DNA of 6,848 nucleotides from a bacterium (lineage in GTDB: Bacteria; Chloroflexota; Dormibacteria; UBA8260; Bog-877): positions 1 to 6,848 of the forward strand of contig JAJYWM010000220.1 of NCBI GenBank assembly GCA_021791455.1. Reading direction: 5' to 3'. A model generated the notes under the pieces. It ran no database searches. It had not been told where the DNA came from and saw only the letters and a list, made by a program, of their open reading frames with translations. Below are positions 16 to 6,848 of this stretch, in pieces. The first letter of the stretch is position 1; each line of letters begins with the position of its first letter. The position numbers and the translations under genes were made by a program.

Positions 16-2181
16 TCAACCGTGTGGGGCCGCTCCTGCGCTGGCCAGGAGGTCCAAGCGATGGTGCCAGCGCTCGTAGAAGCGGCGAAAGTTGAGCCGG
101 CTCAGACGGTCGCGCTCGTCCGGGTCGGTGTCCTCCCAGCCCCGGTGCTCATGCATGACCACAGGCAGGTCCGGGATGCGACGCTGCCGGAGCCCGGCCG
201 CCCGCAGGCTGAGGCAGAGGTCGAAGTCCATCATCCGGTAGAAGCGAAAACGCTCATCCAGCAGGCCCAACTCCGAGAATCTGCTGCGCAGAAGGGCCAG
301 GCAGTAGCCGTCAATGGCGTCCACCTCGACCTCATCGGAGTCGAAGAACTCGCGCATGTCTGCGCTGCGTGCGCCCCATCGCCCGACCGCCCCCACTTGG
401 GGATCTGCGAGGGCCCCAAGGATGGGGGAGAAGCAGTCCCCCACCACCTCCACCCCGGTGTCGAGAATGAGGATGGCCACTCCTCGGGCCGCGCGCACGG
501 TGATGTTGCGCGCCGCCGCCTCGCCGATGCGGTGGTCGGCTCTGAAGACCGTCATCGGCAAACCGCCATCGGCCGCTGCGGCCAGGACGGCCTGGCAGTC
601 CCGGCCGGCGTCGTTGTCCACCACGAGCACCTCTACCCGGTGTCCGCCCAGATGGCGCTCGATGCCTTCCAGGCAGCGGCGGAGATCCTCGGGGTAACCG
701 GCGGTCACGATGCTCACCGACAGCTCCAGCAGGTCTGGCTCTGACCGCCGATCCGGGACCTCCAGCGGTGAGGAGATGAGTCCCCGTCGAAGATCCGTAG
801 CCCGGGCCAGGCGGTATCTGGTCGCGCCGCGTAGGTCCTCTGGGATCACCCGAAGAGCGTTCAGGTTGAGCCGGGCCGCGTCTGCTCGCGCGTAGTCACC
901 AGACGCTCGCAGCGCCTCGCGGGAGGCGCCGACCGAAATCCACGGCCCCGGTGAGGGCGGCGTTGTCGGCTCCTTCTCCAGTCCCAGACCGAGTAGTCGA
1001 TCCGCCGCTCGAAGGGCTCTGGCCCGGGTTGCGATGGCCTGGGAACTGTCCCTGGCGAGATGGAAACAGTCGGCCAGGGCCCGGGGCAGGTCCAGGTCGT
1101 CCTCCAGCCTCCGTTGGACTGTGACGGCAAACCTCTCTGCTGCCTCTGGGGAGCCGGAGTCGGGGTCCTGCGACCCGATGCGCCGCAGGCGGTCAAGCGC
1201 CCTTTCGGCTCCCGCCAATGCGGCCAGGGTGAAGTTGAGGCGGGTGCGATAGCGCACACTGGCGCAGAGAAGGCGAAAGGCGAGGGGGTCGAAACCTCTC
1301 TCCACCAGGTCATCGATGGTGTAGACGTTGCCCGAGGACTTCGCCATCTTGATGCCGTCGGCCAAAAGATGCTGGCCATGCACCCACTGGCGGACGAAGG
1401 TCTGGCCTGTCGCCGCCTCACTCTGGGCCAGCTCATCCTCGTGATGGGGGAATATGTTGTCCACCCCGCCGGTGTGGATGTCGATCTGCTCTCCCAGGTA
1501 CTCCATGGACATGGCAGAGCACTCGATGTGCCAGCCGGGAAAGCCGGGTCCATAGGGGCTGTCCCACACCATAAGCTGTCGACCGGGATCGGCCCTGCGC
1601 CACAAGGTGAAGTCGGCCGGATGGCGTTTTTGGGGGTCGGCCTCATCCCCGGCCGCCGCCTGGAGCGCTTCTGGGGTGTTGCGGGAAAGCCGGCCGTAGG
1701 GCTGATAGGCCGCGGTGTCGAAGTAGACCGTGCCGTCGACCTGATAGGCGCGACCCATCTGGATCAACCTGTCTATCAGGGCCAGCATCTGTGGGATGTG
1801 TTCGGTAGCTCTGGGAAAGACGTCCGCGGGCTCGATGCCCAGCTGCGCCTCCGCCAGGTGGAACTCTGCCTCGAACTGTCCCGCTATCTCGCGCGGTGTC
1901 CGGCCCGCGGCCAGGGCTGCGGCGATGACCTTGTCGCCGCCTCGTTCGGCCATCTCCTGGCGCATGTGGCCGACATCCGTGATGTTCTTGACGTGCCGCA
2001 CCTGCCATCCTTGGGCGCGTGCGACCCTCTTGATCCAGTCGGCCATCAGATAGGTGCGAAGGTTGCCGATGTGGACGGACCTGTAGACCGTGGGGCCGCA
2101 ACTGTACATGGTCAGCTGGCCCGGCCGAAGCGGTGCGACCTCGACCGTCCGGCGCGAGAATGTGTCATGGATGCGCAGCAC
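16..2181 (-). CDS. cysS: Cysteinyl-tRNA synthetase fused to a C-terminal GT2 glycosyltransferase domain
   Basis: Cytoplasmic class I synthetase charging tRNA-Cys, with an added glycosyltransferase domain. Seen: CGPTVY (C28 is a zinc ligand), HIGN at 37-40 as the HIGH motif, NITDVGHM at 67-73, GWHIECSAM with C221, HHEDE with H246 and E250 (completing the zinc site with E. coli-like spacing), and KMAKS at 278-282 as KMSKS. A DALR-type helical region lies near 345-395, and the usual CysRS C-terminal block ([10 protein letters not shown]...) at 420-457. Ordinary CysRS ends about here, near 460 residues. After a linker (458-486) comes a GT2-like fold at 487-705: [15 protein letters not shown] (518-524), LDTGVEV (573-579), [14 protein letters not shown] (642-655) and HEHRGW (677-682). 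The frame is open throughout. The start is GTG; MLRIHDTF aligns with the known CysRS N-terminus and no Shine-Dalgarno is visible, so it may be leaderless. The sugar donor and acceptor are unknown. The CysRS call is very secure and the GT2 call secure at fold level. Confidence 0.95.
715..727 (-). promoter_or_regulatory. Possible internal ribosome binding site and GTG start for the GT2 domain alone
   Basis: Within the fusion gene, GGAG (plus positions 724-727, read on the minus strand) sits 6 nt before an in-frame GTG at 715-717, which encodes V489. Initiation there would give a stand-alone protein of about 233 residues starting MSIVTAGY, where free-standing GT2 enzymes usually begin. GGAG is common in GC-rich coding sequence, so this may be chance. 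It is listed because it falls exactly at the domain border. Confidence 0.2.
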
Positions 2182-2187
2182 AGATCG

Positions 2188-2193
2188 ATGCTA
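2188..2193 (-). promoter_or_regulatory. Putative -10 element of a leaderless cysS promoter
   Basis: On the minus strand TAGCAT (4 of 6 matches to TATAAT) ends 6 nt before the GTG start of cysS, which would place the transcription start at or next to the start codon. No Shine-Dalgarno precedes that GTG, as expected of a leaderless mRNA. No convincing -35 hexamer stands 16-18 bases upstream, so the call rests on spacing and the missing ribosome site. Confidence 0.3.
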
Positions 2194-2195
2194 GC

Positions 2196-2230
2196 AGTGA
2201 GCGGGCGAAGCCCCGAGCCCGCCACTCACT
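2196..2230. repeat. Imperfect inverted repeat in the cysS / S51 hydrolase divergent gap
   Basis: The left arm AGTGAGCGGGC (2196-2206) pairs with GCCCGC (2217-2222) and TCACT (2226-2230), an 11-bp stem interrupted by a 3-base bulge (2223-2225) with a 10-base loop. A competing small hairpin, GGGC-GAA-GCCC, lies at 2203-2213. The repeat fills most of the 62-base gap, upstream of the putative cysS -10 and just before the ribosome site of the rightward gene. It could be an operator for both genes or an mRNA hairpin of the rightward transcript. Confidence 0.45.
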
Positions 2231-2243
2231 GGGCGAGGGAAGC

Positions 2244-2939
2244 GTGACCCTTGGGGCCGAGCGGGAGAGGACCCTGGTGCTGGAGGGGGGCAACGAGTGG
2301 CGCCCGGGATGTGAGGTCGCAGACCGATGGTGGGTGGCCCGCCAAGGGGGCGCAGAGGCCACGATCCTCACGACCGCCGCCCAGGATGGGCCCGAAAGGG
2401 CCGTCCGGTGGGCCAGCAGCTACTTCCGCGGTCTGGGTGTGGCGGTTCGCGCCTGCCCCATTCAGACCGTGGCCGACGCCTCCGATCCGCAGCTCCTCCG
2501 AATCCTAGCCGAGAGCGGATCGGTCTTCATCTGCGGCGGGGACCCGGCGGCGGCCAGGGATGTGCTGGTGGGTTCTCCGGCGGGCTCTATGCTGCTGGAG
2601 CTTTACCGCAGGGGGGTTCCCCTCATCGGGTCCAGCGCCGGTGCGATGGTTCTCGGAGCCAGGTGCCTTCTGCCGCGGCTGGGCTTTGCAACCCTCCCGG
2701 GACTGGGTCTGCTACCCAATGGCGTGGTGGTTCCGCACTGGAACGCTGCGGGCGCGTCCTGGCGTGAGAATGCCATGAAACTGGTTGCGCAACTGGAGGT
2801 GCTGGCGGTAGATGAGGGCACCGCGGCGGCGTGGGATGGCCGCAGCTGGCAGACCTTGGGTGCGGGGCGGGCCCTGGTCCTCAGCTCTGCGGGCGAGCTG
2901 GCGGTCCAGGGTCGCCTGCCTTCTCCGCCGATAGAATGA
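2244..2939 (+). CDS. Peptidase S51 / cyanophycinase-like serine hydrolase (type 1 glutamine amidotransferase-like fold)
   Basis: Predicted cytoplasmic serine hydrolase of the dipeptidase E / cyanophycinase group. Family members cleave Asp-containing dipeptides or cyanophycin; the substrate here cannot be read from sequence. The product is 231 residues, close to E. coli PepE. Numbering from the GTG start: a first strand LVLEGGNEW (11-19), FICGGDP (95-101), the nucleophile elbow GSSAGA (129-134) with S131 as probable nucleophile, PHW with H165 as probable catalytic His, and AVDEGTA (188-194) as the conserved acidic segment near the active site. There is no signal peptide. GTG at 2244 is chosen because GAGGGA at 2235-2240 sits just upstream and the length fits; an upstream ATG at 2133 would run into the divergent cysS start and add a non-homologous leader. 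It is followed after 57 bases by glyQS on the same strand. The family call is strong, the function open. Confidence 0.85.
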   Translation: MTLGAERERTLVLEGGNEWRPGCEVADRWWVARQGGAEATILTTAAQDGPERAVRWASSYFRGLGVAVRACPIQTVADASDPQLLRILAESGSVFICGGDPAAARDVLVGSPAGSMLLELYRRGVPLIGSSAGAMVLGARCLLPRLGFATLPGLGLLPNGVVVPHWNAAGASWRENAMKLVAQLEVLAVDEGTAAAWDGRSWQTLGAGRALVLSSAGELAVQGRLPSPPIE

Positions 2940-2996
2940 CCGGGTTAGCCTGAATTTACAGTTCGCCAAGGGTGGCGGGGCTGCTGGGAGATCTTG

Positions 2997-4307
<1,311 letters not shown>

Positions 4308-4390: not shown

Positions 4391-5653
4391 TCACTCCAGC
4401 CACCGGGCCAGGCGCTCGCGGACATCCTCGCGGACGGATGGCTGCGGCTCATCGCCTGGCACCACCGATTCCAGGATGTAGTCGGTGTCCTTCAGTTGGT
4501 GGCCGGTGAGCACCGCGACCACGTCGGCACCACTGGAGATCTGCCCCGAGGCCCGCAGCTGTCGGACCCCGGCTATGGCGGCGGCGGAGGCGGGCTCGCA
4601 GCCGATCCCCTCACTTGCCAGTTGGCGCTTGGCCCGCAATATCTCCTCCTCGGAGACGGCCGCCGTCATTCCGTCGGTCATCTCCAGGACCCGGCGGGCC
4701 CTGCGCCAATTGGCTGGGCTTCCTATGCGAATGGCGGTGGCCCTGGTCTCCGGGTCAGCCAGCGGGAGGAGGTCGGTATCTCCGTTCCGCCACATCCTGT
4801 GGAACGGGCTCGCACCCTCGGCCTGGATGACGGCCAGGGCGGGCATTCGGTCGAGCAGGCCCAGGGCAAAGAGCTCCCGGAGGCCCTTGCCCACCGCGGA
4901 GCAGTTTCCGAGATTGCCCCCGGGCATGGCGATGACATCCGGCGCCCGCCACCCGCGCTGCTCCATGATCTCGAATAGGAGCGTCTTCTGCCCCTCCAGC
5001 CGCAGGGGATTGATCGAGTTGACCAAGTAGAGGTCCAGCTCTGGCGCGGCCCTGCGCAGCAGCGCGAACGCCTCGTCGAAGTTGCCACCCACCTCCATCA
5101 CCAACGCGCCGAAGTCCTCGGCCTGGGCCAGCTTCGCTCGGGAGACACTGCCTCGGGGAACGAATACGACCGCTTGCAGACCAGCCCTGGCGGAGTACGC
5201 GGCCATCGAGGACGAGGTGTTCCCCGTGGATGCGCACGCCACCACGCTCCTGCCCAGCCGAACCGCCTCCGAGATGCAGACGGTCATCCCCAGATCTTTG
5301 AACGACCCGGTTGGGTTCGCGCCCTGATGCTTGATCGCGAGTTTGGCCACCCCGGCCCACTCTGCTGTCCTCACCGCCTCTGGCATGGGGGTGCCCCCCT
5401 CCCCGAGGGTTACCACGGCCTGCCCGTCGAAATCGGGAAGAAGTTCGCGGAAGCGCCAGACGCCACTTCTGTCCAGGGCTGATCCGGAAGCCCGCCGGGC
5501 CCGAAAGTCGGCGACCAGTTCGCCCGGTCGCAAAAGGGCGGGATCGTAGCTGAACTCCAGGAGCCCGCCGCACGCCGCGCACGACGTCGCCGCGGCATCG
5601 CGAGCCGTCTCTTCGCCACACGATGGCTCGCTGCAGATGAGCCGGGTGGGCAT
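4391..5653 (-). CDS. thrC: Threonine synthase
   Basis: PLP-dependent fold-type II enzyme converting O-phosphohomoserine to threonine and phosphate, the last step of threonine synthesis. The 420-residue product begins with a zinc-knuckle-like segment (C7, C12, C25, C28, then GG), as in many archaeal, actinobacterial and Chloroflexota-type threonine synthases. Then LGEGGTPM (83-90), NPTGSFKD (113-120) with K119 as the PLP Schiff-base lysine, STGNTSSS (142-149), the phosphate-binding loop GGNLGN (245-250), EPASAA (353-358) and LTGHQLKD (382-389). The start is ATG at 5651-5653, behind a G-rich stretch (minus strand of 5659-5664). It shares one base (TGATG) with the stop of a 31-codon upstream frame, which suggests coupling. 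Longer in-frame starts would add a low-complexity Gly/Arg/Ala leader that does not look like protein. It converges on glyQS and diverges from the solute-binding protein gene. A related PLP enzyme is possible but unlikely. Confidence 0.93.
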   Translation of the reverse strand: MPTRLICSEPSCGEETARDAAATSCAACGGLLEFSYDPALLRPGELVADFRARRASGSALDRSGVWRFRELLPDFDGQAVVTLGEGGTPMPEAVRTAEWAGVAKLAIKHQGANPTGSFKDLGMTVCISEAVRLGRSVVACASTGNTSSSMAAYSARAGLQAVVFVPRGSVSRAKLAQAEDFGALVMEVGGNFDEAFALLRRAAPELDLYLVNSINPLRLEGQKTLLFEIMEQRGWRAPDVIAMPGGNLGNCSAVGKGLRELFALGLLDRMPALAVIQAEGASPFHRMWRNGDTDLLPLADPETRATAIRIGSPANWRRARRVLEMTDGMTAAVSEEEILRAKRQLASEGIGCEPASAAAIAGVRQLRASGQISSGADVVAVLTGHQLKDTDYILESVVPGDEPQPSVREDVRERLARWLE

Positions 5654-5748
5654 CACATCCCCCCGGGAACCGCTGTTCGATCCGGCCTGAGCTCCAGGCG
5701 GGGGGTCACCTCGGCCGTCTCTTTCTCCGTTAGCACCGAGCCGCGCAT
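5653..5748 (-). CDS. Possible 31-residue upstream mini-ORF coupled to thrC
   Basis: A short frame beginning MRGSVLTEKE and ending VPGGM stops at TGA (5653-5655), which overlaps the thrC ATG by one base (TGATG), the usual arrangement for re-initiation. Codon third positions are mostly G or C, like the flanking genes. There is no Shine-Dalgarno before its ATG, but TACCCT (plus 5756-5761) ends 7 nt upstream, so it could be a leaderless start. It has four threonine codons in 31 but no threonine run, so it is not an obvious attenuation leader. I recognise no family. It could equally be untranslated leader. Confidence 0.3.
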   Translation of the reverse strand: MRGSVLTEKETAEVTPRLELRPDRTAVPGGM

Positions 5749-5755
5749 GGGAGAA

Positions 5756-5785
5756 AGGGTATCCGGCCCGACCGGCCCTTGGCAC
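5756..5785 (-). promoter_or_regulatory. Candidate promoter for thrC (and the mini-ORF)
   Basis: On the minus strand GTGCCA (plus 5780-5785; 4 of 6 matches to TTGACA), an 18-base spacer and TACCCT (plus 5756-5761; TAnnnT type). Transcription would start near 5748, at the ATG of the 31-codon frame. Both boxes are weak, and the spacer contains a GGGCCGG direct repeat. Confidence 0.25.
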
Positions 5786-5787
5786 TC

Positions 5788-5801
5788 CTGGCTTGGGCCA
5801 G
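5788..5801. repeat. Short perfect palindrome upstream of the rightward promoter
   Basis: CTGGC-TTGG-GCCAG forms a 5-bp stem with a 4-base spacer, ending 11 bases before the -35 box at 5813. It could be half of an activator site, but its size allows chance occurrence. Confidence 0.2.
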
Positions 5802-5812
5802 CCATTCCACGG

Positions 5813-5841
5813 TTGACAGTTTGTGGTCTGTGGTATATGGT
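5813..5841 (+). promoter_or_regulatory. Sigma-A/sigma-70-type promoter of the solute-binding protein gene
   Basis: A perfect -35 TTGACA (5813-5818), a 17-base spacer and TATGGT (5836-5841) as -10. TATATG (5834-5839) is an alternative -10 with a 15-base spacer. The spacer holds two tandem copies of TGTGGT (5822-5827 and 5829-5834), a 7-base repeat lying on one helix face less well than a 10-base repeat would. The expected start is near 5848, giving a leader of about 66 bases. A consensus -35 in such GC-rich DNA is unlikely to be accidental. Confidence 0.7.
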
Positions 5842-5899
5842 CCGCCTAACATCAGGCACGACGGCCAGTCCGTTCACCTCATCAATAGCGCCGGCAGCC

Positions 5900-5907
5900 A
5901 GGAGGGA
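5900..5907 (+). promoter_or_regulatory. Ribosome binding site fixing a TTG start
   Basis: AGGAGGGA contains the full AGGAGG Shine-Dalgarno core, with 8 bases between it and TTG at 5914-5916. It decides the start of the solute-binding lipoprotein: no in-frame ATG precedes the signal sequence, and the first ATG (codon 18) lies inside it. Confidence 0.8.
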
Positions 5908-5913
5908 CCGACA

Positions 5914-6848
5914 TTGCGTAACTTCATCCGCCTCAAGCACTCCCTTGCCTTTTTGGTTGCCCTGATGGCGGGGGCGTCCCTGCTCGCGGCGTGCTCGTCG
6001 GCCCCTTCAGCGTCCAGCACGCCGACTCCCAAGGTGCAGAACGGCGGGACCCTGAACATCGGCATTCCCACCGCCCCGGAGGCGCTGGATCCCAGCACCG
6101 AGGCGAGCTTTGTCGGCCACTGGGTGTTCGCCAACATGTGTTACGGGCTGTACGGCTTCAGCGTCAAGAACCAGGTCGTCCCGGTGCTCGCGACCGGGCT
6201 TCCGACCATCTCCGATGGGGGCCTCCTGTACACCATCCACGTCCGCCAGGGAGTCCGCTTCAACGACGGGACCGCGATGACGGCCGAGGCCGTGAAGACC
6301 TCGCTGGTGCGGGACAAGACGCTCCCGACCTCGGCCCGGGCCGCGGCCCTGGCGGACATATCGTCGATAACGGTGGTCAACAAGTACACGGTGCAGTTGC
6401 GGCTTTCCCAGGTGGATGCCCCGCTGACTTCGATTCTGGCGAGCCGGTCTGGCATCGTCATGTCGCCGACGGCCCTGGCCCGCGAGGGCGCCAACTTCGG
6501 CAACGATCCCGTCTGCGTCGGACCTTTCAGTTTCCAGTCGCGACCCAGCCTGGACCAGATCAACCTCACCCGCTCCAAGTACTTCTACGGCAAGAAGCCC
6601 GCCGTTCAAGAGGTCATCTACCACGTGATCACCGATCCCGCGACCTGCTACTCGGACCTCCTCTCGGGAGCGATCAATGTGGCGGAGTGCCTGGCGCCCA
6701 ACGACGTCAAGCTCCTGGACAGCAACAGCGCCTACCGAGTTCAGCAGGTCACCTCGGACGGCTACTCGATGATCGTGATCAACGTCGGCAATGTGGCCGG
6801 TTCGCTGAAGAAGACCTATGGCACAGCCGATAATCCCCTCGCCAAATA
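5914..6848 (+). CDS. ABC transporter family-5 solute-binding lipoprotein, N-terminal part (cut by window end)
   Basis: Extracytoplasmic substrate-capture protein of a peptide/nickel/opine-type ABC importer, anchored by lipid. The frame is open from TTG at 5914 to the window edge: 311 codons of a protein family usually about 500-600 residues. Seen: basic MRNFIRLKHS, a hydrophobic core (10-23), lipobox LAAC with C27 as the lipidated cysteine, a Ser/Thr/Pro-rich tether (28-40), and the family opening GGTLNIG (44-50) followed by ALDP (57-60). Further family signatures are PVLATGLP (90-97), YTIHVRQGVRFNDGTAMTAE (106-125) and VGPFSF (202-207). Extra cysteines occur at 76, 201, 245 and 259. It has its own promoter and a perfect Shine-Dalgarno; permease and ATPase genes are expected to the right. 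Substrate cannot be read; oligopeptides are the commonest for this family. Confidence 0.9.
   Translation, partial: MRNFIRLKHSLAFLVALMAGASLLAACSSAPSASSTPTPKVQNGGTLNIGIPTAPEALDPSTEASFVGHWVFANMCYGLYGFSVKNQVVPVLATGLPTISDGGLLYTIHVRQGVRFNDGTAMTAEAVKTSLVRDKTLPTSARAAALADISSITVVNKYTVQLRLSQVDAPLTSILASRSGIVMSPTALAREGANFGNDPVCVGPFSFQSRPSLDQINLTRSKYFYGKKPAVQEVIYHVITDPATCYSDLLSGAINVAECLAPNDVKLLDSNSAYRVQQVTSDGYSMIVINVGNVAGSLKKTYGTADNPLAK

Follow-up and report, generated by a model that had tools for sequence, protein, structure and literature searches.

The fusion of a cysteinyl-tRNA synthetase (CysRS) to a GT2-type glycosyltransferase domain is real and not an artefact. In the window (the whole 6,848-nucleotide stretch of DNA that we analysed), open reading frame analysis places an uninterrupted 721-codon frame on the minus strand (16..2181), with a GTG start and no internal stop. 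Extra domains on synthetases are well known as such. For the joining of a synthetase to a glycosyltransferase fold, we found no prior description. The original prediction had stated that no function was described for this combination, and indeed none emerged from literature searches aimed at the fused protein and at CysRS paralogues and fusions, which covered mostly material outside subscription papers. Chloroflexi or CysRS come up at 16 places in an mBio article about cysteine synthesis on RNA (PMC5424206), and the 12 of these that we read make no mention of the fused protein. In the sequence databases, some members are already annotated as cysteine--tRNA ligase.

The frame, its family matches, its relatives and its structural model all describe a CysRS of what we call the TDVGH type followed by a GT2-like domain. 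AlphaFold2 predicts a single confident chain for the 721-residue protein (pLDDT 91.2, pTM 0.86). The CysRS catalytic domain (residues ∼1–325; 1207..2181, minus strand, as for all features of this protein) matches PF01406 tRNA-synt_1e (E 4.1e-92, residues 16–325). It contains a HIGN signature, which is a HIGH-type motif (residues 37–40; 2062..2073), and a KMAKS loop of the KMSKS type (residues 278–282; 1336..1350). Across 94 aligned rows, H37, G39, N40, K278, M279 and K281 are invariant, and A280 and S282 are conserved in at least 90%. The helical domain (residues ∼326–405; 967..1206) follows from the secondary structure of the model and a structural match to 1u0b_B, which extends to residue 459 and covers the C-terminal anticodon-binding mini-domain (residues ∼406–457; 811..966). 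This mini-domain is marked by R425 and D434, present in 208 of 209 fused rows (the other has a gap), and D449, present in 200 of 209. A junction placed by Pfam and the model (residues ∼458–484; 730..810) leads into the GT2-type GT-A domain (residues ∼485–711; 49..729), which matches PF00535 Glycos_transf_2 (E 2e-11, 44.6 bits against a cut-off of 23.3, residues 488–649). The structural search with the full model hardly probed the GT2 part, and the GT2 domain with its mini-domain was then folded and searched separately; that search matched the GT-A fold for the GT2 part and hardly probed the mini-domain.

The architecture is widely shared. A protein database search, which scored only the 7998 candidates with the most words in common and favours proteins of similar length, gave 7698 matches, and all 120 of those listed contain both PF01406 and PF00535 (identity 46–100%). 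A genome scan with the GT2 part alone as query and one genome per species gave 220 relatives. At the best 80 of these loci, 73 have the complete fused frame, three are cut by a contig end, one (L074) has a broken frame and three carry a GT2 domain without the CysRS catalytic part. Several carriers lie on contigs of 2.3–4.0 Mb. A frameshift or misassembly at the junction, raised at the outset as a possible source of error, is thereby ruled out; the idea that close relatives might all have separate genes also failed, for the close relatives are fused.

Record titles among the best 80 of the 220 loci name Dormibacterota, Chloroflexota (Dehalococcoidia, SAR202, one Ktedonobacteria and others), one Desulfarculaceae and one Nitrospinota metagenome-assembled genome. 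The last is a 6-kb contig from the sole genome searched in its phylum. In the phylum of the Desulfarculaceae record, two of 39 genomes are positive: that of the record itself and another in which the gene lies on a 641,648-base contig. The GT2 module is found at E ≤1e-30 in 54 of 201 genomes in the phylum of G011; in the class of this genome six of 60 are positive, and every frame there is of fused length. The class that contains G002 and the Dormiibacterota-titled G001 has 28 positive genomes out of 61, and by score and frame these comprise ten of the fused kind (G248 being cut short) and 18 with the GT2 part as a separate protein.

As judged from its intact signature set, the synthetase half is a CysRS of the TDVGH subfamily and is predicted to charge tRNA-Cys. 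The HIGH/KMSKS-type catalytic domain, the zinc residues and the anticodon mini-domain are all in place, and the protein scores 358.6 bits against the NCBIfam CysRS model TIGR00435 (cut-off 340). NF011108 scores higher, at 390 bits, yet this is below its own cut-off of 780. C28, C221, H246 and E250, which correspond to the zinc ligands of E. coli CysRS, are invariant in 94 rows. Catalytic, helical and anticodon domains are common to the fused protein and bacterial CysRSs (E. coli 1u0b and 1li5; Borrelia 3sp1). What differs is the C-terminal GT2-like domain, the HIGN and KMAKS forms of the two motifs, and the presence in relatives of the fused gene as a second copy alongside another CysRS.

The original prediction had asked whether a second cysS is present, and for the relatives the answer is yes. 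In 25 genomes reached through the loci, 22 have the fused gene, and each of the 22 has one or more additional CysRS-like genes (for G004, a 267-codon piece at a contig end). A representative of these further copies, L086, scores 533 bits against TIGR00435. The two kinds differ in one segment, NITDVGHM in our protein: the GH form is present in 88 of 88 fused frames read (L112 repeats L022), whereas 25 of 29 other copies (L081–L109) read TD(V/I)(D/E)D, one (L098) has the GH form and three have no match. The aligned Borrelia CysRS (3sp1) has the same kind of segment, TDIGH. In a CysRS tree of 105 rows, built by a quick method and rooted at the midpoint, the fused rows cluster with SH-aLRT support of 99 (39 fused rows and the broken L074) or 85 when L019 is included. 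The fused group adjoins 19 unfused TDVGH CysRSs (support 94, not starred), and the window sits in a six-row group (support 100) with Dormiibacterota-titled rows. Two unfused TDVGH CysRSs (L202, L203) and L201 fall outside both groups, and their genomes also have the fused gene.

The fusion also has a split counterpart. The set contains 29 separate GT2 proteins; measured from the first start codon, 20 have 254–344 residues and the others range from 196 to 576. In all 29 the alignment starts at model position 387–414 and so takes in the CysRS mini-domain; the catalytic part of CysRS is absent from every one. A tree of mini-domain plus GT2 divides 72 family rows from four outgroups (100/99) and places the separate forms in two groups, with 7 and 22 members, without resolving the base. 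Both forms occur together in four genomes (G133, G177, G201 and G215). The second CysRS in relatives, this split form and the loss of the DXD aspartate described below were all unforeseen by the original prediction.

Genomes with the separate form tend to have an unfused TDVGH CysRS. By motif it is present in 17 of 24 separate-only genomes versus four of 30 genomes without the module (G026, G031, G037 and G046), the 30 having been chosen from those surveyed in the phylum of G011 and the class of G002, in counts that ignore relatedness and genome incompleteness. Six of the 24 have no TDVGH CysRS, and in the remaining one (G124) the high-scoring copy is cut before the motif. Three further genomes with the separate form include one with a TDVGH CysRS (G016) and two without (G021, G023). 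Among the module-free genomes, reading of four more showed no such motif, and for the remaining 22 the call was made from the score (at most 452 bits; G029 lacks any CysRS match). Fourteen of the 30 come from the class of G002, which has 33 non-carriers; none of the 14 has a match above 472 bits, and G080 has partial matches only. Incomplete genomes may explain part of the mismatch between TDVGH CysRS and module. In three genomes (L125, L147 and L151) a TDVGH CysRS and a separate GT2 are near each other on opposite strands, tail to tail.

How might the two halves work together? Our preferred explanation, which is plausible though we would stop just short of calling it probable, is that the TDVGH CysRS, a second CysRS in relatives, bears an RNA-directed GT-A module working with tRNA-Cys. 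The mini-domain is kept with or without the synthetase and the module co-occurs with one CysRS subfamily, which together point to work on or with tRNA-Cys. A tRNA-directed role was one of several readings offered at the outset, and we favour it because the GT2 domain retains an anticodon mini-domain of CysRS type even where it is not fused; the readings as a neutral merger or a maker of surface glycoconjugates fared less well. Anticodon binding by the mini-domain is established for E. coli CysRS, and 1u0b is the tRNA complex of that enzyme. The mini-domain and the GT2-like domain would act as a unit with tRNA-Cys, and both halves of the fused protein would bind it. Counting against this are the genomes that have the separate module or a TDVGH CysRS but not the other, and the lack of an evident dedicated tRNA-Cys in the tRNA searches described below. 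The mini-domain would hold the substrate while the GT2 domain moved a sugar, independently of metal, onto a nucleotide of the anticodon arm. Such a transfer is the likeliest single step, although as a specific proposal it is doubtful. Somewhat less likely again is the full statement that in Chloroflexota and Dormibacterota a synthetase-tethered, metal-independent glycosyltransferase sugars the tRNA-Cys anticodon arm, as an undescribed modification that also exists in a split, two-gene form.

Sugar transfer to a tRNA anticodon nucleotide has a precedent in animals, where passages of PMC12518689 and PMC11782371 describe it for the queuosine-tRNA enzymes QTGAL and QTMAN. These enzymes act on queuosine, and the likeness to the GT2 module that we propose is one of function. 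tRNA-Cys with a GCA anticodon is not known to carry queuosine, and neither enzyme is known to be linked to a synthetase. If the module does act on tRNA-Cys, it would be a direct case, open to testing, in which little-studied bacteria couple tRNA charging to sugar chemistry or to sugar sensing; it might also account for the retention of more than one CysRS by these cells. The separate form, which consists of mini-domain and GT2 only, amounts to a natural experiment in which the added domain is uncoupled from the charging of cysteine.

One correction concerns the GT2 domain, whose motif set is incomplete. Its DXD motif is degenerate, reading D574-T575-G576 within D574-T-G-V-E578 (448..462). At position 576, where the second Asp of DXD would stand, the 209 fused rows have Ser (115 rows), Gly (88), Ala (four), Asn (one) or Cys (one). 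Asp is absent there from all 241 family rows (209 fused and 32 others; database and locus rows may overlap, and L009, L063 and L071 among the 32 are contig-cut fusions) and present in four of four outgroup GT2s, taken from genomes of the set. According to alignment with other GT2s, on which our statements about cleft residues are based, the catalytic-base Asp of the usual ‘ED’ is D652, within R646-F-Y648-R649-M-M-D652 (226..246), and the Glu is replaced. Comparison with the GT-A enzymes PcManGT (6yv7, metal motif DAD) and GalNAc-T2 (6nqt) likewise sets the fusion family apart as having a mini-domain and no metal motif; in GalNAc-T2 that motif is DXH. The best NCBIfam match of the window's GT2 domain is the mycofactocin glycosyltransferase MftF (TIGR03965), at 57.8 bits and thus below the curated cut-off of 280.

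Loss of the DXD aspartate may mean loss of catalysis, which counts against our preferred explanation and for a rival that deserves serious consideration, although we think it is probably wrong: that the GT2-like domain is catalytically dead and has a binding role instead, be it in strengthening or positioning tRNA-Cys, in recruiting a partner, or in sensing a nucleotide sugar so as to tune the CysRS. The missing aspartate and the replaced Glu of ‘ED’ both speak for it. Moreover, a C-terminal family motif recognized from conservation in the fused rows (R690..S694..N697-F-R-R-F..L712; 46..114) is among the best-kept parts of both forms (in fused rows R690, S694 and N697 at ≥99%, R700 at 91%), while cleft residues drift in the separate forms, where D522, D549, H550, H679 and W682 are frequently altered. 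In the 32 other rows, D652 is kept in 31, D574 in 30, H677 in 28, Y648 in 21, H679 in 19 and W682 in 17. Against a dead domain stands the fused form itself. All 209 fused rows have D574, R646, Y648, R649 and D652, and the residues of H677-x-H679-x-x-W682 (136..153) occur in 205, 207 and 208 of them, respectively; the invariance or near-invariance of D574, N559, D652, H677, R646, Y648 and R649 goes beyond the needs of a scaffold. Furthermore, passages of PMC3961637 document GT-A enzymes that have no DXD, are metal-independent and can be active, so that DXD loss alone is no proof of lost activity.

Selection on the added domain is strong. Over 126 of 168 close pairs, the CysRS core has a median dN/dS of 0.042 and the helical and mini-domain region one of 0.152; for GT2 the median is 0.060 (range 0.025–0.283), a value that indicates strong purifying selection. 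On this sequence evidence, the GT2 half is altered, not decayed. One fused group (L133, L134, L136–L140 and L142, from genomes of 3.1–6.6 Mb) has His-rich tails after the GT2 domain.

A second rival would have the protein make a cysteine-sugar small molecule. The CysRS-like half would activate cysteine for a sugar acceptor built by the GT2 half, in the manner of mycothiol synthesis. MshC, from that pathway, is a CysRS relative able to use a sugar acceptor, and the fused CysRS does match the MshC model TIGR03447 weakly. However, we consider this reading improbable. The match (233.2 bits) is far below the MshC cut-off of 485.1, which bears out the earlier assignment of CysRS rather than MshC motifs. 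Compared with MshC (mycothiol ligase; 3c8z, 8hfm), the fused protein has GT2 attached and keeps the anticodon mini-domain, whose conserved Arg and Asp are retained even on separate GT2s. Moreover, shorter MshC-like paralogues without the mini-domain reside in a number of the same genomes; three of them (L101, L102 and L105; 390–457 residues) stay below the MshC cut-off, at 363–378 bits, and exceed the cysS cut-off. More broadly, MshC-like CysRS paralogues of ∼390–490 codons without the anticodon domain were seen at L099, L101–L105 and L213–L217, and matches of this kind are also present in genomes without the GT2 module.

The weakest rival is a neutral merger of adjoining genes, in which each half does everyday work unrelated to that of the other and their joining serves no purpose; it accords with the lack of a conserved operon and with a separate form that makes covalent joining inessential, but it is very improbable given that the CysRS tree shows the fusion maintained across a single large group, that the CysRS mini-domain is on GT2 in all 29 separate cases and that the GT2 domain is so strongly conserved. 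Clustering of neighbours at 120 loci, in which the GT gene itself was dropped from the gene choice at some loci, gave no conserved operon or sugar operon: the largest neighbour cluster is present at 24 loci, mostly of close relatives. Ten cluster representatives comprise a CoA-transferase, MeaB, NfeD, a short-chain dehydrogenase, a weak DUF429 match, a CT398-type zinc-ribbon protein, a GFO/IDH/MocA oxidoreductase, CNNM/CorC, a peptidase M3 and one familyless protein. None of the ten is a sugar or envelope-polymer gene, which leaves the suggested link to cell-surface glycoconjugates unsupported.

The fused gene has no dedicated tRNA-Cys beside it at the loci covered: ARAGORN found only tRNA-Sec (L014) and tRNA-Ala (L037) at 60 of the 80 loci, and no tRNA in the window. 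The selenocysteine tRNA gene (L014, 218–315, plus strand) is ∼4 kb upstream of the fused gene. A genome-wide tRNA-Cys pattern, which recognized only GCA anticodons combined with a single T-arm form and picked up tRNA-Ala, tRNA-Gly and other sites as well, was followed by ARAGORN on 25 of 30 pattern loci. This called tRNA-Cys at 14, one per genome in 14 of 15 genomes and always with anticodon GCA, and the CysRSs outside the window's class may well therefore share one tRNA. Two genomes of the window's class (G002 and G003) have further tRNA-Cys-like matches, partly ARAGORN-tested. In these genomes the 3′ part of tRNA-Cys is repeated within a few kb (L165, L166, L179 and L180). At L165 and L180 no tRNA was called for it, which would fit attachment-site repeats left by integrated elements.

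The window encodes four other proteins with family matches. A peptidase S51 family protein (2133–2939, plus strand) is cyanophycinase-like, scoring 45.8 bits and thus below the cyanophycinase cut-off of 126.6; its frame as listed overlaps the fused gene head to head, and its true start is therefore probably further downstream. It is followed by a glycyl-tRNA synthetase (2994–4307, plus strand), a threonine synthase (4391–5785, minus strand) and an incomplete family 5 solute-binding protein (5779–6846, plus strand). A neighbour cluster of nine loci (cluster 12), with a representative resembling the same glycyl-tRNA synthetase, is found close to the fused gene in loci of Dormibacterota type, among them L001, L003 and L030.
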